A DNA stretch of 64,000 bases from Thermoanaerobaculum sp. (GTDB lineage: Bacteria; Acidobacteriota; Thermoanaerobaculia; Multivoradales; UBA5704): the NCBI GenBank assembly GCA_021154885.1, contig JAJKHS010000001.1, positions 1-64,000 of the forward strand, written 5' to 3'. Within the stretch, counting starts at the first letter, position 1. Each line of letters opens with the position of its first letter. Below are positions 10,304 through 63,415 of the stretch, one piece after another. The position numbers and the translations under genes are program-made. The notes under the pieces were generated by a model. That model ran no database searches. It was not told the DNA's origin and saw only the letters and a program-made list of their open reading frames with translations.

Positions 10304-10888
10304 ATGAACGTCCAGCCCGTGCGCCTCGAAGGCCCCGCCCTCGTCCTCGAACCGCTGACGCCCGGCCACGCCTCCGAGCTGTGGCCGAAGGCCGATCCGG
10401 AGATCTTCCGCCATACCCTGGACTGGCCGCGGGACGATGGGCTCGACGCCTTCGCGGAGTGGCTCTGCGATGGCCTCGCCCGTCCCGACACGCTGCTTTT
10501 CCTCATTCGGATCAAGCCGGAGCTGGAGGCCGTGGGGATGACGGGCTACCTGGAGATCCGCCCGGCCCACCGCGGCCTGGAGATCGGCCGTACCTGGATC
10601 GCGAAGTCGCACCAGGGCTCAAAGGTGAACCCGGAGAGCAAGTACCTCCTGCTGCGCCACGCCTTCGAGGAGCTGGGAGCGGCGCGCGTCCAGTTCAAGA
10701 CCGACGTCAACAACCTCCACAGCCAGCGGGCGATCGAGAAGCTGGGCGCCCGACGCGAGGGCGTGCTGCGCCGCTACCAGATGCGCTCCAACGGTCTCCT
10801 CCGCGACACGATGATGTTCAGCATCCTCGCCGAGGAGTGGCCGGCGGTGAAGGCGGGATTGGAGGGGAGGCTGGGGATGGGGAACTAG
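10304..10888 (+). CDS. GNAT acetyltransferase, RimJ/RimL type
   Basis: 194 aa; GAGGGA lies 5 nt before the ATG. The sequence follows the RimJ/RimL-like Acetyltransf_3 pattern: N-terminal LEPLTPGHASELW, central EIGRTWIAKSHQGS, VNPESKYLLLRHAFEELGAARVQ and the C-terminal NNLHSQRAIEKLGARREGVLR that shapes the acetyl-CoA site. Such enzymes acetylate protein N-termini or small amines; the substrate cannot be read. Its stop codon interlocks with that of the convergent gene at 10885. Confidence 0.88.
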   Translation: MNVQPVRLEGPALVLEPLTPGHASELWPKADPEIFRHTLDWPRDDGLDAFAEWLCDGLARPDTLLFLIRIKPELEAVGMTGYLEIRPAHRGLEIGRTWIAKSHQGSKVNPESKYLLLRHAFEELGAARVQFKTDVNNLHSQRAIEKLGARREGVLRRYQMRSNGLLRDTMMFSILAEEWPAVKAGLEGRLGMGN

Positions 10889-11673
10889 GGGGCGGTCAAG
10901 GACGGGGTCTCCACCTTGTTGGCGTGGATGACGCCCAGATCCAGCAGCCACCGCCGGACCCTGACCGGGTCGAGGCTTGCAACCGCCGCGGCCTGTTCGA
11001 AGGCGCTGCGCCAGAGGTCCAGCTCTCTCGCGGTCTCCGGGAGAGATTCGCCGGTCCACAACAGGAGATCCTGCTCCTCGCGGGAGCCGGGCTCGTACCG
11101 GGCGAGGGCGCGAGCGACGGTGCGAGGGTGACGGCTGCGGTCGTCGCTGGCCCGCAGAAAGGGAATTACCCAGGGCAGGAGATCGTCGCGAAAGACGAGA
11201 CGGTTGACCAGATCCTGAGGTAGAGAAAGCGAGATGGCCCAGGCAGATGCCAGCACCATTCGCAACAGCTCGACGTTTGCGCTCGAGCCGCTCTCCAGGA
11301 GTTCGACCAGGTTGAGCAGCACGGGCCCCACCTTGAGTTGGAGCTCCCGGGGCCGCTCGGCCATCTCGCCCCCCCTCAGGAGCACCCGCAATCCCCGGCC
11401 GAGGTCTGCGGCACTGACCTTGGGCTGCTTCAGGAATTCGGCGATCTCTTCGCTGGCGAGCTGGCGAATCCGGGCCGCCTGCCCTGCGTCCAGACCGAGG
11501 ACGTGAGGCCGGCATGCCTGATCGACGAGGCTCGCCAGCTCCATCCAGAGGGGAAATTCCTCTCGGCCGGAGGGGCGTTCGTCCGGCAGCAGGCGGTCTT
11601 CGAGGCGAGCCCGGATCCACGCTCGCAGGCGGGCGTCGGTCCAGGCTTCGAAATCGTCGTGCGTGCTCGCCAT
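10885..11673 (-). CDS. Unrecognised alpha-helical protein
   Basis: 262 aa, soluble, no signal peptide or membrane segment. It is rich in Leu, Arg and Glu with long predicted helices and no motif I can place. The ATG at 11673 has a weak ribosome site. Its TAG and the TAG of the convergent GNAT gene share the palindrome CTAG, so the genes overlap by 3 nt. It lies just downstream of, and in the same direction as, the TIR/TPR pair (108-nt gap), so it could belong to that transcript. Function unknown. Confidence 0.6.
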   Translation of the reverse strand: MASTHDDFEAWTDARLRAWIRARLEDRLLPDERPSGREEFPLWMELASLVDQACRPHVLGLDAGQAARIRQLASEEIAEFLKQPKVSAADLGRGLRVLLRGGEMAERPRELQLKVGPVLLNLVELLESGSSANVELLRMVLASAWAISLSLPQDLVNRLVFRDDLLPWVIPFLRASDDRSRHPRTVARALARYEPGSREEQDLLLWTGESLPETARELDLWRSAFEQAAAVASLDPVRVRRWLLDLGVIHANKVETPSLTAP

Positions 11674-33529: not shown

Positions 33530-36500
33530 TCAGATGCGCGCACCAGCGCGGCCCGCTGGAGTGCCTATTGGGCGTTCTTCAGGTTCGTCTCCGCGGCTCT
33601 CATTCGCATTTGTGTTCAGTAGCTCGGATCGCCAATCCTGACGGATCTGCTCGGCGGTCCTTCTAACTCTTTCCACCAAAGGCGCCGCTGAACCAGGTGC
33701 GGTCGAGTCGTCGTTCCCCAGTGGCTCAATGCCGAGTTGGTTAAGTCTCGACCACAGAGGGGCCATCGCCGCGTCAGGGTCACGAAAGAACAGGCTGCCG
33801 CGGATGCGTACAAACGCCCATCCAAGCCGCTCAAGAATGGCCTGCCGTTCGAGGTCGCGGTCAAGCTGCTCAGGCGTGTGCCATCGCTCTCCGTCGCACT
33901 CCACTGCCAGCTTTCGAGTCTGCCCTTCGACAACAAGGTCGATGCGGTAGGCTCCGACCGGCCATTGCGGCTGCACTCGATACCCTGCGGATACGAGTCG
34001 TTGCAGCACCAACTTCTCGAAAACGGAATCGGTTCGCTTGCCCTGCTCTTCCATCAAGCGTAGGAGCGCCTGAGGATCGCGAGCGTGCTCGATAAGCCGG
34101 CGGCGAAGATCGCCTCCTTTGAGGTGAGTCTCCGGGTCGAGCGAATAGACGATCCACAGTTGATTGCGTGCGCGGCTCACGGCCACGTTGTAGCGCTTTT
34201 TGTAGAGATCTTTGGGCCCGGCATCGCGGTAGGAGAGTTGTCCGTCCTCCGGAGGGCCATCAACCATGGAAAGAAAGATTACGTCCCGCTCGTCGCCCTG
34301 AAACTGCGCCGCATTACCGCAGAGGACTCGGTGTCTCGCTAAAACATCCGGCGACAGCCGAAGGCGGAGGAGATTTTCAACCAGCAACGCCTGCTCATCG
34401 CCGAGCAGCGAGATAACTCCAAAGCTCGCCGGACGTCCAGATTCATTCCTCGCATACTCCGGGATTCTAAGGCACGCTATGAGCAACGACGCGATCTCCT
34501 CTGCCTCGACGCCGTTCGTCTTGGCGCGTCCGTCACGGAATCCATTAACTCGGTACGCCACGAGCGCCGGACGCACGCTCGCCGAAAGAGGCTCACGCAA
34601 TGGGAGTATCGTGTTACTGTAGGACAGGTGATTGCTGAACTGGATGATCTCAGGCACGCAGCGGAAGTGCTCGCGCAGCGCGACTACACCGCCGAACGCC
34701 GCTTCAGCGAGGTGGTAGATCGAAGTCTGCCCGTCGTAGAGGTGACTGTTTGGAATTCCTTGAAGATCGGTAGAGATGAGGCGCTGCACTTCATCCAGAC
34801 GCTGACCCACAGCATCGGGTGTTACCTGCTCCTTGTCGCCGACCACGACGTGCTCCCGGCCCAGGTAAAGTGCCGCGAGCGCGGTGACATCGCTTTGGCT
34901 TGCCTCGTCAATGATTACCACGTCGAACTTCGTCTCCCGGGGATCGAAGCTCTCATATACGCGGCTCAACGGCATGATCCAAACCGGCACGGCACGGCGA
35001 GCCGCAGCGAGAAGCTGCCGGGCCTGTCGCAACAGCTCCGGTGCACGCTTCCCTGTTCCTTTGCCAATTTTGTGAATCGTTTGCACGAAGCCCATCAAGG
35101 CTTGTTGCTCTCGCAGCCCTGTGCGTTCACGCTGCGCGGCCCAGGTCTCGTGCTCGATGATTTGTGCCGCGACTTGCCGCAGCTCGCCCTCCGTTTGGTC
35201 CAGCCGCTCTTGCAGTTCGGTCATCGGTACAGCCGCGCGCCTGTCGAGCTCTTGGAGCCACTGGCGCCAGCGCCAGGCCGAGATCGCATCGCCGGGCGGT
35301 TGTGCCGCGTCATGGGGCTTGTGCCTTTGAGCGACGACGTGGGCCCACGAAGGCGCCACCACTTCCAGCTTTGCGAGCAAAACCAATCGCCCTTCATACG
35401 CCCTTCGGAGACCTTCAAGCCGTGCGAGCTCGCGACAGGCTTCCCCGTAGTTTTCAGAGTCCCACTCGTCTTGCGCCTGGAGCAGGATCGACGCGGCATC
35501 ACTCTGCGGAAAGCCGGCGAGGTAAACTCGCTGCGCCTGCAACGCGGCCGACAACTCCGCCTGCCGCAGCAACGCCGCCTGCGCCTCAACAATCACCGTC
35601 AGCCCCTGCGATCCCGCGCGCTGCACTCTTGCCAGCTCTCCGTGATCGCCAGGCACGGGAGGATGAGCGGCCAGCCACACGTCCCAGCGAAATCCAGCGG
35701 CGCACAACTCGCTGATGAGTGGCTCCCAGACGGTTCCCCGCCATTCGAGACGCATCCGAATTTCTGTCGCATAGCCCTGAGCCGCACGCTCTGGCGAACG
35801 GCCGAGGCTTTCGACCGGCGGCCCGCCGAGGCTCTCCACGGCGCGACGCCAGCGCGAGGCGAAGCGGCTTCGGCTTTCCTCCAACTTCGCTAGCGCACGC
35901 AACGCGCGGAACTCATCAAGCGTGCGCGGCGCCCGGCCTTCCACGCGGCACGCTTCGATTAGCTGATGCCACGCCCGATGGATGAGCTTGGTCTTCAAAC
36001 CGAATGCTCCGCCCGCTTCGAGGAACGTCACGATCTCGACCAGCATCGCCGCGACCTCATCCACTGGACGACCCTGCGGCAGCTCCGGTCCATGCGCCAT
36101 GATGAGACGCTGAGCCGTCCCGGCTTCACCGGCTAGCGTCTCCATAGCGGCGAGCAAGTCCCGCCACGCATCCTGCAACCCGCCACCCGCCCACCCGGCG
36201 AACAGCACTTCACGCAACCAGCTCTGTTCCTCGGCCAGCATTGTCACCGACTGCCGGACACGCTGATGGAGATTCTGGAATTGCGCCGCAGTGTATCCGG
36301 TAACGGAATTGCGTTCCCATAGCTCAGGCCGATGCGCTTTCGCGCGTGAGTCTGCGGCCGCTCGTTCCGCCACGAGCAATCGGAAATCCGCCGTCGTCAC
36401 CAACTCCGCGAGCAGCGGCTGCGACACTGCAAGTTGTACCTCGTCATATGGCGCAAGGATCCCCTGGGAGGCGTAGAGTTGCCGAACCTCTACGTCGGTT

Positions 36501-38134
36501 AGCGGGCACAAGATGCTCGGCTGCAGCGGCCCAGGTATCCAGCCATCACGATCCGCGCCCGCCTTCACACGCTTCGCCACCTCGATCGGACTCAGCCCTT
36601 CTCCGCCGAATACGATTTCCTCGACCTCGCTGAACCGCGCATCCCGAAGCTGACGCCGCAGTGCGCCAGCGACGTCGAGCAATCTCCGCCGCTTGTCGCG
36701 TAGGATCCCGGCCTCGCCCCGCAGGCGGGCGGCATCCGAGCCCGAAAGCCGGTTGGCGATGTCCTGCGCCGCTCGCGAAAGCTGCGCCCGGCTGTCCGCG
36801 TCACCTTCGAGCACGCTCAGGCAGAGCGGCTGGAGTGCTTGATCCACTTGCCGCCGCAGCACCCGCAGTGCCTTCGTCGTGTGCGCAGTCACGAGCACGG
36901 TTTTCCCTTGTGACAGCAGATAGCCAAGCAGGTTCGCGATCGTGTGCGTCTTGCCCGTACCCGGCGGGCCTTGCACAAGCACTGCCTTGGCTTTCATCAG
37001 GCGTACCGCGATTTGATACTGCTCCGCGTTCGCTGGTTTGCTGAAAAGGATGTCGGGCTCCGGCCCCGCCGGTGTCCGTGGCAACTCGCTATCGCCGCCA
37101 GTCAGCACCTCCGGTATGTTTTCTGTCTCCACCCCCACAATGCGCGACAGCCCTTCCGGGGCCTGCGTATCTTTATCCTCCAAATCCTCCAAGATATGAT
37201 CTAGCGTCGTGCTCAGGCCCGCCGTTCGCGGGCGGACGATGATCATAGGCTCACGCCAGATGCTCGGCCGGTTGACCGCCGTACCGCGAGCCTTGCCGTC
37301 GAGGAACTCGCCATCCTTGAACAGCCCTTGTACGAGCCGGCGGAAAAATCCCTCTGTGTGCTCGCCCCCGAGCGGCTCCACCGGCTGAGCCTCCAACTCT
37401 CTATCGAAGTGAGCGATCATCCGTCCTTCGATGCTCGGCACCAGCCTGAGCAGTGCTCGATGCAACTCTACCTTTTCCGTTCCCGTGTTGAAGCGAAACT
37501 CCGGCACCGCCGAGTCGAACTCCAGGTTCACTCGCTGCATGAGCACCGGGTGCCGGATCAAGGGCTCCGCCACACCGAGCACTCCGTCCGCGAGCACCAG
37601 TTCCACACGGTCGCCCTCGCGCTGCATCATTGTCCACAGCGCGTGAATATGCTCGAATAGCCGCCGCGCCGCGACCGCCGGCCGCTCAGCCGCGACCCAA
37701 CTCGTGCGCGCTGCCACCCACTCGTTCAGCGCCCCGAGACGCTCTGGGTCGTCTGCAAAGGCAATGGTGATCGTCTGTCTCTCCTCATTCTGAAGGTTCC
37801 GTGATTCCAGCGTTTCCGCCTCTGTATCCACCGACTGCCACCCCAGCTTCAGCCAGCCTTCCAGCACATCGGGTGGCTTCGGGCAAGGCGTCAGTTGCGC
37901 GCGTTGGACGCGGATGAGAGGCTCTATCTCCGCAGTCTCAGCCGCGTCGTTGGCATCGTCCTCCTCGCGATCACCACGGCGCACCTGCACACACGGATGC
38001 GTGGGCCACGTATCCAGCCGCAGCACCTCGGACCCAGCCAAGTCGCGCGCTACCGGATTCCGAAGCTCGTTCAGTTCCTTTAGAAACTTGAACGTCTGAA
38101 CCAAGCGTTTTTTGGCACTAATTGCGGGACTCAT
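33530..38134 (-). CDS. SF1 helicase with C-terminal PD-(D/E)XK nuclease, putative defence protein
   Basis: 1534 aa. The N-terminal ~370 residues have no clear motif. The split helicase core has Walker A VQGPPGTGKTHTIANLL (~residue 395), then a ~630-aa helical insertion, Walker B DVVIIDEASQSDV, motif III VVGDKEQVTP, LREHFRCVPEIIQFSN, AAQFQGDERDVIFLSMV and YNVAVSRARNQLWIV, as in AAA_11/AAA_12 Upf1-like proteins. The C-terminus is a Vsr-like nuclease (SVFEKLVLQRLVSAGY, YRIDLVVEG, LAVECDGERWH, FVRIRGSLFF) with D...E-x-D catalytic residues. Such fusions populate defence islands. AT-rich upstream region; flanked by two antitoxin-like genes. Phage resistance is inference. Confidence 0.85.
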   Translation of the reverse strand: MSPAISAKKRLVQTFKFLKELNELRNPVARDLAGSEVLRLDTWPTHPCVQVRRGDREEDDANDAAETAEIEPLIRVQRAQLTPCPKPPDVLEGWLKLGWQSVDTEAETLESRNLQNEERQTITIAFADDPERLGALNEWVAARTSWVAAERPAVAARRLFEHIHALWTMMQREGDRVELVLADGVLGVAEPLIRHPVLMQRVNLEFDSAVPEFRFNTGTEKVELHRALLRLVPSIEGRMIAHFDRELEAQPVEPLGGEHTEGFFRRLVQGLFKDGEFLDGKARGTAVNRPSIWREPMIIVRPRTAGLSTTLDHILEDLEDKDTQAPEGLSRIVGVETENIPEVLTGGDSELPRTPAGPEPDILFSKPANAEQYQIAVRLMKAKAVLVQGPPGTGKTHTIANLLGYLLSQGKTVLVTAHTTKALRVLRRQVDQALQPLCLSVLEGDADSRAQLSRAAQDIANRLSGSDAARLRGEAGILRDKRRRLLDVAGALRRQLRDARFSEVEEIVFGGEGLSPIEVAKRVKAGADRDGWIPGPLQPSILCPLTDVEVRQLYASQGILAPYDEVQLAVSQPLLAELVTTADFRLLVAERAAADSRAKAHRPELWERNSVTGYTAAQFQNLHQRVRQSVTMLAEEQSWLREVLFAGWAGGGLQDAWRDLLAAMETLAGEAGTAQRLIMAHGPELPQGRPVDEVAAMLVEIVTFLEAGGAFGLKTKLIHRAWHQLIEACRVEGRAPRTLDEFRALRALAKLEESRSRFASRWRRAVESLGGPPVESLGRSPERAAQGYATEIRMRLEWRGTVWEPLISELCAAGFRWDVWLAAHPPVPGDHGELARVQRAGSQGLTVIVEAQAALLRQAELSAALQAQRVYLAGFPQSDAASILLQAQDEWDSENYGEACRELARLEGLRRAYEGRLVLLAKLEVVAPSWAHVVAQRHKPHDAAQPPGDAISAWRWRQWLQELDRRAAVPMTELQERLDQTEGELRQVAAQIIEHETWAAQRERTGLREQQALMGFVQTIHKIGKGTGKRAPELLRQARQLLAAARRAVPVWIMPLSRVYESFDPRETKFDVVIIDEASQSDVTALAALYLGREHVVVGDKEQVTPDAVGQRLDEVQRLISTDLQGIPNSHLYDGQTSIYHLAEAAFGGVVALREHFRCVPEIIQFSNHLSYSNTILPLREPLSASVRPALVAYRVNGFRDGRAKTNGVEAEEIASLLIACLRIPEYARNESGRPASFGVISLLGDEQALLVENLLRLRLSPDVLARHRVLCGNAAQFQGDERDVIFLSMVDGPPEDGQLSYRDAGPKDLYKKRYNVAVSRARNQLWIVYSLDPETHLKGGDLRRRLIEHARDPQALLRLMEEQGKRTDSVFEKLVLQRLVSAGYRVQPQWPVGAYRIDLVVEGQTRKLAVECDGERWHTPEQLDRDLERQAILERLGWAFVRIRGSLFFRDPDAAMAPLWSRLNQLGIEPLGNDDSTAPGSAAPLVERVRRTAEQIRQDWRSELLNTNANESRGDEPEERPIGTPAGRAGARI

Positions 38135-39712: not shown

Positions 39713-39810
39713 ACTCCGCCTCATACGTCGTCACCTCCAGCCGGTGTCCCCAGGGATCGTTGAAGTAGACGGAGAACGCCTTGTGGTGATCCCGCGGGGT
39801 GAGGGACCGG
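39713..39810 (-). pseudogene. Truncated copy of the VOC gene 3' end
   Basis: About 98 nt nearly identical to 45521-45618, the 3' part of the VOC gene at 45486-45947, in the same orientation. Only the end of the domain (VYFNDPWG-type sequence) survives. The remainder of 39811-40077 holds no convincing gene; a short minus-strand frame starting MGVKQFLGVLLALIG has no good ribosome site. Confidence 0.85.
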
Positions 39811-40077
39811 AAGTCATCAGGCCCTCGTGACCAGAAGCACTCTTGGACATATCGTCATAGCGGGAAACCTGACCTGAATTGCTCCTTTGAGGCCGTGCTC
39901 GGAGGAAACCCCTGATCGTCGTTGGACCGATCAAAGCCAAAAGGACTCCCAAAAACTGCTTGACTCCCATAGAATTTACCTATACGCTGTGATCTACGAA
40001 GTCCCTCTCCGAGGACGGGCACCTGGGTGACGCTGTTGAGCTGAGATTCCGGCGCCGTCGGCGCCAGGGAGGCTTCC

Positions 40078-40917
40078 ATGGCGGACAAGAAAAACCCTGA
40101 CGGCCCCAAGCAGCCTTTGCAGGAAGAGAGCGTCGTCGCTCGGTTGAAGGGCGCTTCTGGCGGCGGGCCTGCCGGCCTGACAACCTATACCGGTCTGCTG
40201 GGCCGCAGCTCCAAGGAAGGCTACTGGCTGCTGTATCCGACTCTCGACATGAGCACGAGCATCGAGATCCAGGAGTCGGACGTCGTTCATGGCGAGACAC
40301 TGCCGCCGGAGCAGTCACCGTTCGGAGGCTTGGGGGGGACCCGGGTGTTCGTCCGCAAGGGCGCCCAAGTCACCACCACGCGGACCATCTCCCGGACCCA
40401 CCAGGCGGGGGCCGGCGACGAGTTCGACCTCGATATCCGGGTGGGCCGGCGAGCATCCCCCCGCCGCCCCGCTCTTCTGGCGACATGCGTAACCGACGGA
40501 GCAGAGTCCTGCGGCCCTGGCCCGACCGATATCAACTGCGAGACTCGCGGGGGGAGCTGCAACACCTGCGGTGGTACCTGCGCGATTACCTGCGGCTGCG
40601 GTGGCACCGGTCGCGTTAGCTGCGACGACGACTGCGCGACCCGTCAGACCTGCGTGACAGATTGCCACCAGGGCACCTGCCTCACGTGCCCGACACAGTG
40701 CAACCAGCCCACCTGCACCTGCCCCACACAATGCAATCAGGGCACCTGTCAGGTCACCTGCACCTGCTACACACAATGCCATCAGGGCACCTGCTGGACG
40801 AACTGCACGTGCGACCCGACCTGCGCGAGGACTTGCGGAGGTACGTGCGGATTTACGTGCGAAGGTAAGTGCGGACCTAACCACACCCACCTGTGCGTCT
40901 TTACCGACGGCTGTTAA
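40078..40917 (+). CDS. Giant Cys/Thr-rich RiPP precursor beside LanC and LanB
   Basis: 279 aa with two distinct halves. Residues 1-136 contain no Cys: a charged start (MADKKNPDGPKQPLQEE), then GYWLLYPTLDMSTSIEIQES, PPEQSPFGGLGGTRVFVRKG and a polar segment ending SPRRPALLA. This looks like a folded leader or recognition domain. Residues 137-279 hold 32 Cys and 18 Thr-Cys dipeptides, with imperfect repeats such as CHQGTCLTCPTQCNQ, CTCPTQCNQGTC and CYTQCHQGTCW. LanC follows after 25 nt and LanB after that. GGGAGG precedes the ATG at close range. A substrate of the LanB/LanC pair is by far the simplest reading; a metal-binding protein is the alternative. Confidence 0.75.
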   Translation: MADKKNPDGPKQPLQEESVVARLKGASGGGPAGLTTYTGLLGRSSKEGYWLLYPTLDMSTSIEIQESDVVHGETLPPEQSPFGGLGGTRVFVRKGAQVTTTRTISRTHQAGAGDEFDLDIRVGRRASPRRPALLATCVTDGAESCGPGPTDINCETRGGSCNTCGGTCAITCGCGGTGRVSCDDDCATRQTCVTDCHQGTCLTCPTQCNQPTCTCPTQCNQGTCQVTCTCYTQCHQGTCWTNCTCDPTCARTCGGTCGFTCEGKCGPNHTHLCVFTDGC

Positions 40918-40942
40918 GGGCCGCCCTTCGCGCACCGGCCCG

Positions 40943-42286
40943 ATGAAGACTTGGAAGCCGGTCCTGACGGGGGAGCTTGCCGCCGCGGCAAGCTTCGCCG
41001 GTCGCGAAGTCTCCGCCCGCCTGAGCGTTCCTTCCCGCGTGGAGGAGGCCGCCGCTGCCACGCGAGCCCAAACTGCGTTCCCGCGCTCGGCTGGCTGGGC
41101 TCCTTACTCCGTTGCGCAGGGCTATGCGGGGCTGGCCCTGCTGTGGAGCTATCTCGATGCCATCTCTCCGGAAGAAGCGTGGGACGTGACGGCACGGGAA
41201 CATCTGGAACTGGCGGTGCATGACGTTGAGGCGCATTCGAACCTTCCCGCGGGCCTGTTTTCCGGCCTGAGCGGCATGGCGTTCAGCGCCTGGCAGCTTT
41301 CCCGTCAGGGCACGCGCTATCGCCGGCTTTTGAGCGCTCTGGATGGCGAGATCGCCCCTCAGGTGATCTCGCTTGCCAACAGCCTCCTGGGACAGCATGG
41401 GGTTTCAGTCAGCGACTTCGACGTCATCTCCGGTCTGAGCGGCATCGGGGCATACCTGCTATGCCGCCGCCATGAGCCCGGCGCGGATGCTGCCCTCGCT
41501 TCGGTGGTCCAGGCGCTCATTGACCTCGGCGGCGAAGTAGACGGCGTGCCTCGCTGGCACACCCCGGTCCATCGTCTGTGGGATGAGGAACAGCAAAAGC
41601 TCTATCCCCACGGCGACCTGAATTGCGGCCTCGCCCATGGGATTCCCGGCCCGCTGGCGTTTCTTTCCTTGGCGTGCCAGGCCGGCCTGGAGAGCCCCGG
41701 CCTGCCGGAGAGCATCGCCCGGCTGGCCGGCTGGCTTTGCCGGAACCGTCTCGACGATTCGTGGGGTGTCAACTGGCCGACGGCCACGCCGCTGGTGGAA
41801 AGAGATGGCCGATTGGAGGCTCCTCCGGCCGCGTCCACCGCGGAGTTGACCAGCCGATGCGCGTGGTGTTACGGCAGCCCGGGGGTCGCGCGGGCGCTGT
41901 GGTTGGCCGGCGAGGCGCTCGACTGCAACGAGTACCGGGATCTCGCGCTCTCGGCCATGGAGGCGGTCTTCCGCCGCCCGATCCCCGAGCGGCGCATCGA
42001 TTCCCCGACTTTCTGCCATGGAGTCGCCGGTCTCTTGCAGATCACGCTGCGCTTCGCTCACGATACGGGCCTGGCCGTATTCCAGGAGCAGAGCCTCGTG
42101 CTGGTCCGCCAGATCCTGGGCTGCTACCGGCCGGAGTCGTTGCTGGGCTTCCGCAACATCGAGACCCCAAGCTCCGAAACGGACCAGCCCGGACTGTTGG
42201 ACGGGGCCCCTGGCGTGGCGCTCGTCCTGCTGGCCGCGGCGACCAGCGTGGAGCCGACTTGGGACCGGCTCTTCCTGTTATCGTAA
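40943..42286 (+). CDS. lanC: LanC-like lanthionine cyclase
   Basis: 447 aa. The alpha/alpha-barrel motifs and all zinc and catalytic residues are present: NCGLAHGIPGPLA with the active His, CAWCYGSPGVA (zinc Cys) and FCHGVAGLLQ (zinc Cys-His). LanC adds Cys thiols to dehydrated Ser/Thr to form (methyl)lanthionine rings. It lies 25 nt behind the Cys-rich precursor, and its TAA overlaps the LanB ATG (TAATG). The start lacks a strong ribosome site, so coupling to the precursor is likely. Confidence 0.9.
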   Translation: MKTWKPVLTGELAAAASFAGREVSARLSVPSRVEEAAAATRAQTAFPRSAGWAPYSVAQGYAGLALLWSYLDAISPEEAWDVTAREHLELAVHDVEAHSNLPAGLFSGLSGMAFSAWQLSRQGTRYRRLLSALDGEIAPQVISLANSLLGQHGVSVSDFDVISGLSGIGAYLLCRRHEPGADAALASVVQALIDLGGEVDGVPRWHTPVHRLWDEEQQKLYPHGDLNCGLAHGIPGPLAFLSLACQAGLESPGLPESIARLAGWLCRNRLDDSWGVNWPTATPLVERDGRLEAPPAASTAELTSRCAWCYGSPGVARALWLAGEALDCNEYRDLALSAMEAVFRRPIPERRIDSPTFCHGVAGLLQITLRFAHDTGLAVFQEQSLVLVRQILGCYRPESLLGFRNIETPSSETDQPGLLDGAPGVALVLLAAATSVEPTWDRLFLLS

Positions 42287-45200
42287 TGGCCAGCCCCATG
42301 CGCGCCGCTCCCGCCATTCGCGCCGCCAAAGCCGCGCCTGCCCCGGCTCAGCAGGGCGAAGCCCTGTACGAGCCCCTCGATTGCGTCCTGGTGCGGACTC
42401 CCCTGCTGCCCGTGCGCTCCTATCTCGAGCTCGCGGACGAAGAACGGCAACTGGCTGCCATGTCCGATCCCATCGTCCGGCGGGCCTTGGCCGCGGGCAG
42501 CCCATCGCTCCTGGGCGCCCTCGAAAGGTTTCAACAGTCGGGACTGGGCCGGCGGGATGCCGAGCGGATGCGCGCCAAGCTCCTCCGCTACCAGATCCGC
42601 ATGTCCACGCGGCCCACGCCGTACGGCCTCTTCGCCGGAGTCGCGCTCGGGCGCTGGGGCCCCGAGACGGATCTCAGGGTCCGCGCGACTTGCTCCCTCA
42701 CGAGAACCCGTCCTGACATGGCGTGGCTCATGGACCTTGCCATGGCCGCGGAAGCCAAGCCGGCCGTCCGCCGGCAGCTCAAGGTTTTCACTCACCCCCT
42801 GGCGGTCATCCAGGCGGGCCGCGTTTGTCTGTCCGAACGAGCACCCACGAAAGCCGGCGGGCACGGCGCGCCGGTCTCCGTGAGAGCCACGGGCGTCGTC
42901 CTACGAGCGCTGGAGCTCGCGCGCAGCCCCATCCCCTACCCGGAGCTCGCGGCCAGGCTGTGCCAGACGACTCCGTCCGCCACCCCCGAAAAGGTGGACA
43001 AGCTCCTCGACGAGCTGTGGGCGCAGACCCTACTGCTCACCGAGCTCCGGCCGCCGCTCACCATGGTGGGCCCCGCGCAATGGATTGCCGGCTGCCTGCG
43101 CGAGATCCCCGAGGCCGCCGAAGACTGGACCCGCCTCGACTCGTTCCTGACGGCCGCGGCTGAGTGGGACCGTGCGACACCGGAGGAGAGCATCGAACGG
43201 TTCCGGACCCTGCTGGCCCAAGTCGGCGCTCCCCAGGATGGATCTCAACAGACTCCGGTTCAGGCGGACATGGCCATTTCCATCGAGGGGCGAATCGGCA
43301 ACGCGGTGGCTGCTGAGGCGGCGCGCGCAGCCGAGCTCCTGTTGCGCCTCTCTCCGTGGCCCCGCGGGCTATCCTCCCTGGAAGGTTACCGGCAGGCGTT
43401 TGCCAACCGCTACGGGCTCGACAGGGAGGTTTCCTTGCTCGAATTGCTCGATTCGCAGCGAGGTCTGGGACCGCCGTCGTTCCAGGGTCATGCTGCTACC
43501 GGTCCGGAGCCGCAGAAGGCGGCGCAGCGCAGCCAGACCCTGCTGCACCTGGCCTGCACCGCCCTGCACGACCGGCAACGCGTCGTGGTCTTGGACGAGG
43601 TGTTCCTGGCCTGCCTGGAAACCGGCAGTCCCAACTCGGCAACGGCCCCCCTCTCCCTGGACCTCAACGTCTTGGTGGCGGCCCGTTCGGCCGCCGCGAT
43701 CGAGGCGGGCGATTTCAAGCTGGTCGTGGGCCCCAACTTGGGAGCCATGGCGGCCGGCCGCAACCTGGCGCGCTTCGCCGGCCTGCTGGCCCCGGACGGG
43801 CTGGACGCCCTGAAGCGGTGCGCCGCCGCGGAACAGGCTCATACCGGGGATCAGTTGTGGGCGGAGATCGTGTATCTCCCGGCCAATCTCCGTTCGGCCA
43901 ATGTCGTGATCCGCCCACCTGTCCGCTCGTACGAAGTGCCCTTCGGCGTTTCCGTGGGCGTGCCGGCTTCCGGCGCGATCCCGCTCGACCAGTTGGTGGT
44001 GGGAATCGAGGAGAGCCGCTTTTACGTGCGGTGGCCGGCGGTGGGCAAGCGGATCGTGTTTTCCTCGGGACATATGCTGAATCCGCACAACGCTCCGGCC
44101 GTCGCGCGCTTCCTGATGGACGTCAGCACGGATGGCAGGACGCTCTTCAGCTCGTTCGACTGGGGACCGGCCGAGGGCTTTCCCTACCTGCCACGCGTGG
44201 AAGTAGGCAGAGTCGTGCTGCGGCCCGCTCAGTGGCGGATTCAAAAAGGCGATCTGGCGGGCGGTCTCGACCGGTGGCGCGATGAATGGGAGGTGCCGCG
44301 GCATGTCTGCCTGAGCTTCGGCGACAACCGCTTGGTGCTCGATCTCGATCAGGCGGCGCAGGCGACGGAGCTTGAAACCGAGCTGCGGAAACTGGGCGAC
44401 AGCGGTGGAGCGATCCTTGTCCAGGAAGTGCTGCCGGCCTTGGAGGACGCATGGCTGCCGGGCCCCGGCGGACACTACTACGGCGAACTCGTGGTGCCGA
44501 TGGTCCTGCGCCGCGGCGCTCCGGCCTTGGAGCGGCGCGCGGCTGCCGCCGCCAGGACGTCCATTCCGCAACCCGCCGTGGATGCCGCGAGCCCGGCTGC
44601 GCTGGCCGCGAGGTATCGCCCGCCGGGCAGCGACTGGCTCTACGTCAAGCTGTACTGCCCCCGGGATCACGAGGACGACGTGATCTGCGGATCGATGCAG
44701 ACGTTTGCCGAGAACGCGGTCGCGTCCCGGCTGGCCGACTCCTGGTTCTTCCTCCGGTACTCCGATCCCGACCCCCATCTGAGGGTCCGGTTCCACGGCT
44801 CGCCGGAGAGGCTCCGCAGCCAGCTCTTTGCGCACCTTTGCGATTGGGCCGGCGGCCTGATGTCCGATGGGCTCTGCTTGAAATTTGTGATGGACACTTA
44901 CGAACAGGAGATCGAGCGTTTTGGCGGTCCGGAGGGCATGGCCGCCGCGGAAGCTCTGTTTGCCGCGGACAGTCTCGGTGCCACCGAGCTGGTGGGGCTC
45001 TTCCGCGAGAAGCGATGGCCGCACGACCAGACTGCGTTGCTGGCCCTCAGCAGCGATGATCTCTTGGGTGGCCTTGGCTTTGACGAAGCAGACCGGCTGC
45101 GCTGGTATCGCCAACAGACGAACGATGGCGGGCCCGAAGCCGGTGCGGACTACCGGCAACGCAAGAATGTGCTGCGCGCCTTGCTGGGACAGCCCCTAGA

Positions 45201-45510
45201 GTCTCTCGCCAAGGATCCGGGCAGAGCCGAAATCGCCGCTGCGCTGACCCGGCGACGGAATGCCCTGCTCCTGGTCGGACGGCAGCTCCGCCAGCTTGCC
45301 GAGCAAGGTGCGTTGGGTCTTTCCATCGATATCCTGTGCCGTTCCTTCGTGCACCTGCACGTCAACCGTATGGCGGGTGCGGAAGGGCCATCGGAGCAAC
45401 GAATCCTGGCTCTCCTCTTGCGGACGCGCGAGAGCCTGGAGAAAGCGCCGGTCGGCGGCAAAGCCCGAGAAAGATCCGAAGTCGATCAGCCGGATCGGTC
45501 GCCAAGCTGA
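42286..45510 (+). CDS. lanB: LanB-type full-length dehydratase
   Basis: 1074 aa. The N-terminal lantibiotic dehydratase domain has ALYEPLDCVLVRTPLLPVRS, RYQIRMSTRPTPYGLFAGVA and RPDMAWLMDL. Its middle carries FPYLPRVEVGRVVLRPAQWR. The last ~300 residues form the thiopeptide-type (SpaB C-terminal) elimination domain: DWLYVKLYCPRDHEDDVI, WFFLRYSDPDPHLRVRFHG and HLHVNRMAG. Full-length LanB enzymes glutamylate Ser/Thr using Glu-tRNA and then eliminate glutamate. Its last 25 nt overlap the convergent VOC gene. No transporter or leader protease is nearby. Confidence 0.92.
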   Translation: MASPMRAAPAIRAAKAAPAPAQQGEALYEPLDCVLVRTPLLPVRSYLELADEERQLAAMSDPIVRRALAAGSPSLLGALERFQQSGLGRRDAERMRAKLLRYQIRMSTRPTPYGLFAGVALGRWGPETDLRVRATCSLTRTRPDMAWLMDLAMAAEAKPAVRRQLKVFTHPLAVIQAGRVCLSERAPTKAGGHGAPVSVRATGVVLRALELARSPIPYPELAARLCQTTPSATPEKVDKLLDELWAQTLLLTELRPPLTMVGPAQWIAGCLREIPEAAEDWTRLDSFLTAAAEWDRATPEESIERFRTLLAQVGAPQDGSQQTPVQADMAISIEGRIGNAVAAEAARAAELLLRLSPWPRGLSSLEGYRQAFANRYGLDREVSLLELLDSQRGLGPPSFQGHAATGPEPQKAAQRSQTLLHLACTALHDRQRVVVLDEVFLACLETGSPNSATAPLSLDLNVLVAARSAAAIEAGDFKLVVGPNLGAMAAGRNLARFAGLLAPDGLDALKRCAAAEQAHTGDQLWAEIVYLPANLRSANVVIRPPVRSYEVPFGVSVGVPASGAIPLDQLVVGIEESRFYVRWPAVGKRIVFSSGHMLNPHNAPAVARFLMDVSTDGRTLFSSFDWGPAEGFPYLPRVEVGRVVLRPAQWRIQKGDLAGGLDRWRDEWEVPRHVCLSFGDNRLVLDLDQAAQATELETELRKLGDSGGAILVQEVLPALEDAWLPGPGGHYYGELVVPMVLRRGAPALERRAAAAARTSIPQPAVDAASPAALAARYRPPGSDWLYVKLYCPRDHEDDVICGSMQTFAENAVASRLADSWFFLRYSDPDPHLRVRFHGSPERLRSQLFAHLCDWAGGLMSDGLCLKFVMDTYEQEIERFGGPEGMAAAEALFAADSLGATELVGLFREKRWPHDQTALLALSSDDLLGGLGFDEADRLRWYRQQTNDGGPEAGADYRQRKNVLRALLGQPLESLAKDPGRAEIAAALTRRRNALLLVGRQLRQLAEQGALGLSIDILCRSFVHLHVNRMAGAEGPSEQRILALLLRTRESLEKAPVGGKARERSEVDQPDRSPS

Positions 45511-45947
45511 GCGCGCACATACTCCGCCTCATACGTCGTCACCTCCAGCCGGTGCCCCCAGGGATCGTTGAAGTAGACGGAGAACGCCTTGCGATAGTCC
45601 TGCGGGGTGAGGGAGCGGATCTCCTCGCCCGCGTCGTTGCAGACCGGGTTGTCCCGGACGTGCTCCAGGAACTGTACGAAGCCGGGGCCGTCCACCCGGA
45701 AGGCCACGCGGTGGAAGCCCGCCGTGGGCCGATCCCGCTGCGGCTCGCCCGTGAACAGGGCCAGCATCGTCCCGCCTCCTTGGCTGGAGACATTGCTGGA
45801 GATCATCAGCGGGCCTCCGGGGTCCGCGGCCCAGTCTTCATGCTGGGGAAGAGGGGCGAGCCCCAGCGTCCGCTCGTACCAGCGGGCCGCCTCCCGGCGG
45901 TCGGGAACGAAGAATTCGACGTGATCGATCTGGTCCACCTTGAACAT
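45486..45947 (-). CDS. VOC (glyoxalase/bleomycin-resistance-like) family protein
   Basis: 153 aa from the ATG at 45947 behind GAGGAGGG. MFKVDQIDHVEFFVPDRREA, TAGFHRVAFRVDGPGFVQFL and VYFNDPWGHRLEVTTYEAEY form the two beta-alpha-beta-beta-beta modules with His and Glu metal ligands. Substrate unknown. A truncated second copy of its 3' part lies at 39713, so the two bracket the lanthipeptide genes. Confidence 0.87.
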   Translation of the reverse strand: MFKVDQIDHVEFFVPDRREAARWYERTLGLAPLPQHEDWAADPGGPLMISSNVSSQGGGTMLALFTGEPQRDRPTAGFHRVAFRVDGPGFVQFLEHVRDNPVCNDAGEEIRSLTPQDYRKAFSVYFNDPWGHRLEVTTYEAEYVRAQLGDRSG

Positions 45948-46116
45948 GTATCCCTCCTCAGGGCTCGTTCTTGCGAGACCCTGGAGCAGACCATAGGACA
46001 TTCACCTGATACAGCTCAAGGGGAGTCGTTTGACAAGACTGCACGTTTCTGTCAGCCTGATTCAGGAATTCATGGCTCTCTGTGGGGTGGCAGGGCAGGT
46101 ACAAGGGGACACACGT

Positions 46117-46443
46117 ATGAGAAAGAACGTCATTTTCATTGTCATCTTGGTTGCCGTCGTGGCGACCACTTTCCTCCCCACCCCCGCAGCAGCCTGCTAC
46201 GGCTACTGCGATGATTTGAATCATTGCCGAATCTCGCTCGGGGTCACCGGGATGACCTGCAGCAACTTGGGGGGCGGCTGCATTGAATACCCGGATCAAG
46301 GCTGTGGCGGCGGCGGTTTGGCAGCCTTGCCCAGCAACGTGCCGGTGTTGACCCAAGAGGCATTTGTCGCCTCCCTCGCCGGGAAAACTTCCGCTCCCTC
46401 TCCCTCTCGCGCCATCGTGGCGTGCAGCGTGGGGTCCGACTAA
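46117..46443 (+). CDS. Small secreted Cys-rich protein
   Basis: 108 aa; AAGGGG lies 9 nt before the ATG. Signal peptide MRKNVIFIVILVAVVATTFL with cleavage near PAAA. The mature N-terminus CYGYCDDLNHC, then MTCSNLGGGC and DQGC, has seven Cys in 40 residues; an Ala/Ser/Pro-rich tail follows. It may be a disulfide-bonded secreted peptide, possibly connected with the neighbouring RiPP genes; nothing proves this. Confidence 0.65.
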   Translation: MRKNVIFIVILVAVVATTFLPTPAAACYGYCDDLNHCRISLGVTGMTCSNLGGGCIEYPDQGCGGGGLAALPSNVPVLTQEAFVASLAGKTSAPSPSRAIVACSVGSD

Positions 46444-53998: not shown

Positions 53999-63229
<9,231 letters not shown>

Positions 63230-63232
63230 GAC

Positions 63233-63415
63233 CGCGCCATTCTAAGTCCTTTTCCTGCAAGAAGCTACGAGCAGGTTTCCGCGAACCTCCCCACAGTGAG
63301 GAGGTACTGTCGCGGCGAGAGTGAAGCCCTTCCACCGAAATGACTCTCTAGCAAGGAGTTGGAGGAAGCGCGAAGCCGTGGGGGAGAGGCTGGGCGCTCG
63401 AGGTTCGCGCCGGGA
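63233..63415 (-). promoter_or_regulatory. CRISPR leader region
   Basis: About 180 nt between the newest repeat and the 89-aa ORF. Less GC-rich next to the array (minus strand GCAGGAAAAGGACTTAGAATGG), with an inverted repeat ACCTCC/GGAGGT (63285-63290 and 63300-63305). By position it should hold the array promoter and the integration signals for Cas1-Cas2. Confidence 0.65.

Follow-up and report, generated by a model that had tools for sequence, protein, structure and literature searches.

Can the enzymes that build lanthionine rings act on a whole protein domain? This question is raised by a locus of Thermoanaerobaculum sp. (Acidobacteriota; assembly GCA_021154885.1), which lies at positions 40,078 to 45,510 of the 64,000-nucleotide stretch of contig JAJKHS010000001.1 that we analysed, called here the window. 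There, a gene for a Cys-rich putative precursor is followed by genes for a LanC cyclase and a LanB dehydratase, and a first-pass annotation of the DNA had proposed a lanthionine-rich protein instead of a small lantibiotic. Our analysis indicates that the locus is probably a class I lanthipeptide operon whose substrate is unusually large, a real and probably undescribed variant. LanB and LanC quite likely modify this precursor, and it is plausible that the product remains one large thioether-rich protein. The most surprising part is the leader, which is common to this class I operon and to class V-type systems. The features of the operon are as follows.

40078..40917, + strand: precursor gene, 279 amino acids (aa) (open reading frame (ORF), composition, homologues L109 and L110)
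40174..40380, + strand: predicted folded leader domain, residues ~33-101, common to class V-linked precursors (AlphaFold2; alignment of 15 leaders)
40423..40434, + strand: FDLD motif, residues 116-119, class I docking box (motif search, leader alignment, FNLD-box literature)
40486..40914, + strand: core, residues 137-279, with 32 Cys, 29 Thr and 3 Ser (composition)
40693..40794, + strand: stretch with three TQC-x-Q-x-TC repeats (motif count, DNA copies)
40943..42286, + strand: lanC, thioether cyclase (PF05147, 2.4e-54; zinc-site Cys and Cys-His aligned with NisC)
42286..45510, + strand: lanB, full-length class I dehydratase, 1074 aa (PF04738 and PF14028; Arg/His aligned with NisB)

The composition of the precursor is as the first-pass annotation had described it. 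All 32 Cys lie in the C-terminal part, the first at residue 137 and the last at residue 279, and residues 1-136 contain none. The 143-residue core holds as many Ser/Thr as Cys. Of the 18 Thr-Cys pairs in the precursor, 17 are within residues 137-279, where 10,000 shuffles gave 6.5 on average and 15 at most. The imperfect repeats of the core were recovered at both levels, as three TQC-x-Q-x-TC units starting at residues 206, 217 and 232 (0.0018 per shuffle) and as four imperfect 45-nt copies in the DNA. The GC content at codon positions is similar in the leader, LanB and LanC and deviates in the core, a deviation that a Cys/Thr-rich protein would give. The precursor matched no Pfam family at E up to 1 and no NCBIfam family, and a search of genome contigs with it found no relative.

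The close spacing of the three genes also stands: 25 nt separate the precursor stop from the LanC start, and the LanB ATG at 42286 shares one base with the end of the LanC stop. A longer, TTG-started ORF (41623-45510) was considered for LanB and set aside in favour of 42286-45510. Pfam matches were strong for both enzymes (LANC_like 2.4e-54; Lant_dehydr_N 9.5e-171; Lant_dehydr_C 1.2e-51), and LanB is full-length, comprising both the glutamylation and the elimination domain. By a count on the printed alignment, the window LanB keeps NisB positions R83, R87, R784, R786, R826 and H961, which we take to be catalytic residues, and LanC keeps the aligned Cys and Cys-His of NisC, presumably the zinc site. 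With a Thr/Ser and Cys core encoded beside both enzymes, every defining feature of class I that we tested is present apart from the size limit used in surveys (279 residues against 30-120), which is not a chemical criterion. Size, which the first-pass annotation had rightly found unusual, and leader set the system apart.

Using the precursor in a tblastn search of 72,556 plasmid records, we found two matches, in Streptomyces sp. NBC_01320 (L109) and in Nonomuraea gerenzanensis (L110), and in both the gene order precursor-LanC-LanB is identical to that of the window. Their LanC proteins are 51% and 49% identical to the window LanC and their LanB proteins 48% and 46% identical to the window LanB, respectively. 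The second LanB of the window's own genome is only 30.5% identical (its LanC 34%), and other Acidobacteriota LanBs share 29-37% identity with the window LanB. A tree of 36 LanBs groups the window with L109 and L110 in one clade (support 0.995; 1.0 with Embleya L115), while the 32 other Acidobacteriota LanBs, including the second one of the own genome, fall outside it. The L109 precursor has 278 aa and 24 Cys, also carries three TQC-x-Q-x-TC units, and is 29.7% identical to that of the window across the aligned 67%; the L110 precursor, unannotated in its record and given an ATG start chosen here, has 192 aa and 13 Cys. The occurrence of the same operon in two actinobacteria, the FDLD box and the conserved LanB and LanC catalytic residues support the precursor as a LanB/LanC substrate, as had been proposed.

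Coverage of actinobacterial genomes came only from two narrow pattern scans and the plasmid records, and the number of class I members is therefore probably an underestimate. Among the Acidobacteriota, no leader relative was found in 12 longer LanB stretches (L084-L095) and the 6-kb contig L039, nor in the ~1.5-kb flanks of 30 LanB loci; this last test is blind to the window's gene order, because the window's own locus, which was included, has a flank that does not reach its precursor. An Embleya locus with a LanC relative (L114) was rejected, as neither a LanB nor a Cys-rich precursor was found in it.

A link between leader and dehydratase is suggested by the FDLD motif. According to a passage of PMC7296275, the nisin maturation complex requires the FNLD box in order to assemble, and a passage of PMC3930743 places the FDLD form of this class I box in gallidermin and others. 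The class V dehydratase consists of an APH kinase and a HopA1-like lyase, LanK and LanY, in the account given in part of PMC9486802. We found FDLD in 3/3 LanB-linked and 0/14 class V-linked precursors (Fisher p 0.0015, the cases behind this and our other p-values not being independent, since a number of cores are related to one another or contain internal repeats). At roughly the position of FDLD, F[LFM]xG, a motif defined after viewing the alignment, whereas FDLD was known beforehand, occurs in 14/14 class V-linked and 0/3 LanB-linked precursors. Moreover, among 299 open frames of at least 25 codons in 35-51 kb of the window, the only F[ND]L[DE] is the FDLD of the precursor. Curated models give the box no confirmation: the NCBIfam FDLD-family model NF038155 reached only E 0.019, in 2/15 leaders. 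On the simplest reading, the leader seems to be modular, with one fold and an exchangeable docking segment, and to serve two unrelated machineries.

Relatives of residues ~30-110 occur in Acidobacteriota, on one Paracoccus aestuarii plasmid and on two further Streptomyces plasmids. Besides the window, there are 18 leader-family loci: 13 with an APH kinase and HopA1, two with LanC and LanB, and three (L028, L112 and L113) with neither gene set. On the test that the first-pass annotation had set, whether homologues lie mostly away from LanB/LanC, the leader-domain relatives are indeed mostly elsewhere (13/18 with APH and HopA1, 3/18 with neither, 2/18 with LanB), but both relatives that also share FDLD and the Cys/Thr core adjoin LanC and LanB. 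Overall, that annotation is partly supported, namely in the substrate role, the structured leader and the size. It had missed that the leader's family is found mostly with dehydratases of the class V type, and often with even larger cores.

The 13 class V-type loci belong to Acidobacteriota and Paracoccus, and LanC is also present in 12 of them. Their 14 precursors (two in L027) range from 144 to 1005 residues with 0 to 96 core Cys, the cores reaching about 880 residues; given the small members L111, L126, L129 and L011, a giant core is common, not universal. The window's own genome holds both kinds, namely the window class I locus and the class V-type locus C144 (L017: 658 aa, 55 Cys). In a sample of the phylum, HopA1 was found in 9/396 genomes and the leader in 4/396, all four among the nine; since few candidates were scored per genome (11 in the leader phylum search, 22-28 in the class searches, 2 in the LanB phylum search), absences are soft, also with regard to this overlap. 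No APH/LanK or HopA1/LanY match was found at 30-56 kb of the window (E up to 1e-5, two queries each). Viral contigs, and phages searched by tblastn, gave no match; among the weak leader matches, L014, L016, L130 and L131 proved unrelated once read, and L015 and L018 gave no hit. Several loci come from fragmented assemblies, and in L033 the frame ends early while the Cys-rich stretch continues in another frame, so that its core is counted short.

Individual loci vary around this pattern. A third locus of the own genome (L077, 5790-7073, contig C45) is class V-type: beside APH, HopA1 and LanC lies a 428-codon frame that holds 55 Cys, CGGPTQCGGIHTCG units in repeated copies and a leader not matched by the window's family. 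Cys-rich repetitive putative precursors with other leaders also lie beside APH, HopA1 and LanC in L080 (11265-12668, - strand) and L081 (6342-7082). A papain-family peptidase, a candidate leader protease, is encoded directly upstream of the precursor in L013 (7818-8759), L027 (6578-7612) and L080 (12619-13518, - strand). The Paracoccus aestuarii plasmid carries a leader-family gene with a Cys-free tail beside APH and HopA1 (L111, 8989-9423), with type I-E CRISPR genes nearby. The three loci with neither gene set were excluded from the class I and class V motif counts. On the Streptomyces plasmids, L112 (8986-9522) and its near-copy L113 encode a leader-family precursor with 6 Cys, which perhaps has a third maturase; its neighbours in L112 are two proteins that match no Pfam family, and a look for lanthipeptide genes there found none. 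L028 (892-1581, - strand), on a 6.9-kb contig, has CPCVCPYP-like repeats, and its tail, with 15 Cys and only 4 Ser/Thr, is poorly suited to lanthionines.

The Cys-free N-terminal half had been described as a structured leader, and modelling agrees: AlphaFold2 predicts a beta domain at residues ~33-101 (predicted local distance difference test, pLDDT, of 79-90 in the blocks of residues 31-100) and a similar one for the L017 leader. Confidence in the model is low for the stretch around FDLD. A search of PDB sequences with the leader profile gave a best E of 0.018 over short, chance-like stretches. A VIA-align row at Z 2.7, to a chain of the lexapeptide dehydratase complex, is within noise, and no relationship is claimed from it.

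From these elements, a mechanism can be proposed. LanB would bind the precursor through FDLD at residues 116-119, glutamylate many of the core's 32 Ser/Thr and then eliminate them, after which LanC would join the dehydro residues to the 32 Cys as thioethers, probably often pairing a Thr with a Cys five positions further along. This would give a domain of 143 residues that carries numerous (methyl)lanthionine rings. Because the leader domain is common to class V-type precursors, the folded N-terminal domain would probably have a role independent of the dehydratase, e.g., presentation, solubility or targeting.

The spacing of Ser/Thr and Cys was analysed by keeping Cys fixed, shuffling the other residues and ranking offsets -2 to -8, with -1 left out. 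The set comprised the 17 cores with at least 10 Cys from 22 precursors, five with fewer than 10 Cys being left out; L077, L080 and L081 are counted here and not in the leader counts. Ser/Thr was most enriched at -5 from Cys in 12/17 of these partly related and repetitive cores, including all three class I cores. The top offset in the others was -6 in two, -7 in two and -2 (tied with -6) in one.

Several results weigh against the interpretation given above. In the three class I cores, offset -1 (TC) exceeds -5 (z 5.5, 3.1 and 3.0 vs 3.7, 2.5 and 2.9), and a Thr immediately before a Cys is not expected to form a ring with that Cys; -1 also beats -5 in L077 and L081 and is strong in L080. As -1 was omitted from the ranking and is stronger in the class I cores, the five-residue ring spacing is a prediction, not a result. 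The model of the window leader is moderate (mean pLDDT 64), and no confident fold relative was found, the best Foldseek E being 0.13 and the best VIA-align Z 3.3. The known class I members are three and fall in one clade, so the association with FDLD may be a single event. Core length is poorly conserved, with 143 residues in the window and about 70 in Nonomuraea; the Streptomyces LanB is broken near its end by an IS66 element, and no leader relative was found in 15 kb around the sister LanB of Embleya L115. Finally, the operon has neither exporter nor protease: none of the nine flanking ORFs that were scanned belongs to a transporter family, and the only peptidase among them, a DUF5700 putative zinc peptidase, lies at 49.7 kb, beyond unrelated genes, in line with the first-pass annotation.

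As a wider and tentative proposal, which we consider possible rather than expected, bacteria may make a class of large proteins stapled by thioethers, their Thr/Cys-rich cores spanning ~70 to 880 residues. One leader fold would be coupled to two unrelated dehydration chemistries, the glutamyl-tRNA-dependent LanB and the kinase/lyase LanK/LanY, by a swap of the short docking motif, the cores would share a Thr-x4-Cys geometry, and the products would act whole, as probably structural or surface proteins, not antibiotics.

Alternatively, the core could be a polyprotein, modified by LanB/LanC and then cut by a protease into several small lanthipeptides. The repeated units in the window core and in the HopA1-linked cores L012, L077 and L081 would suit such a product, as would the papain-family peptidase gene that immediately precedes the precursor in L013, L027 and L080. 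However, the window operon lacks a protease, its units are imperfect and no recurring cut site was seen by eye, and the peptidase was found in 2/13 leader-family class V loci (one query, L027); we regard this explanation as unlikely. Less probable still, by some distance, is a disulfide-rich or metal-binding core, with LanB/LanC serving another substrate or having lost their role. A density of 32 Cys in 143 residues fits a metal-binding protein too, and the thioethers are predicted only, but the FDLD box, the absence of any other F[ND]L[DE] frame in 35-51 kb, the same operon in two phyla, and Ser/Thr that equal Cys in number and are enriched at fixed offsets argue against this reading.

Compared with class I systems of the nisin/gallidermin type, the window operon shares a full-length LanB, a LanC, the FDLD box and a Thr/Ser and Cys core, but differs in a leader part of ~136 residues that holds a folded domain, in its 143-residue, 32-Cys core and in the lack of a transporter or protease. 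Other Acidobacteriota class I loci (L085 and L086, read by eye) also have LanB and LanC beside the precursor; unlike that of the window, their precursors are small, and the leader is an ordinary one of the Gly-Gly type. Class V systems such as cacaoidin and lexapeptide, with a LanK kinase and a LanY HopA1-like lyase, resemble the 13 loci in which leader-domain relatives lie beside such genes, whereas the window uses LanB instead and has no APH/HopA1 beside its precursor. Proteusin and Nif11 precursors have large leaders common to several maturases. The likeness lies in a large leader domain used by unrelated enzymes of ribosomally synthesized and post-translationally modified peptides; the difference is that none of the 15 leaders here matches a Pfam model at E up to 0.1, described leader models included. 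ThaA/ThaM of coral Acidobacteriota, in the part of PMC13083261 that describes them, pair a type II synthetase, which belongs to a different enzyme class, with a core rich in Cys.

The flanks of the operon bear on its history, through the two copies of a 116-bp direct repeat found on both sides.

39713..39828, no strand assigned: left copy, fragment of a glyoxalase-type gene end (88.8% identity to the right copy; 78% protein match)
45521..45634, no strand assigned: right copy, within the intact glyoxalase-type gene 45486-46001 (- strand) (repeat search)

Together with the LanB tree, this repeat suggests that the cassette may have arrived horizontally. No empty insertion site was found in relatives: the glyoxalase-type gene had no match in G001-G003, and the left flank matched nothing beyond stretches of 80-168 bases. 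That the cassette was recently acquired and is no longer functional in this genome is the least probable explanation and a very doubtful one, for although the repeat, a search that found no precursor counterpart in the same-genus genomes G001 and G002 (a weak G002 match was unrelated) and the interrupted Streptomyces LanB would fit it, the three window frames are open and the catalytic residues are kept.

Elsewhere in the window, a small protein at 46117-46440 has a signal-peptide-like start, several Cys and no Pfam match, and L077 encodes one comparable by look only (10668-11099, - strand). Positions 33530-38134 (- strand), near a DUF433 gene, encode a helicase-like protein of 1534 aa that includes an MTES_1575 nuclease domain. 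In a long stretch at ~54000-63300, the ORFs of several frames repeat a single short peptide pattern, which is what one would expect from a very large CRISPR array.

In the open-licence PubMed Central literature, we found no description of this precursor family. Section 7 of PMC9486802 states that the 2022 class V survey drew its precursors from ORFs of <110 residues, against up to 1005 residues in the present leader family, and a large survey of class I-IV precursors, in the part of PMC7268733 that gives its limits (30-120 residues), dropped products of >120 residues; precursors as large as these therefore lay outside both surveys. If our interpretation is true, lanthionine chemistry would extend beyond small peptides to whole protein domains. 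Exchanging FDLD and F[LFM]xG in a leader common to LanB and LanK/LanY could then distinguish the docking segment from the general parts. Given the survey limits of 110-120 residues, more such proteins may remain unrecognised in genomes.

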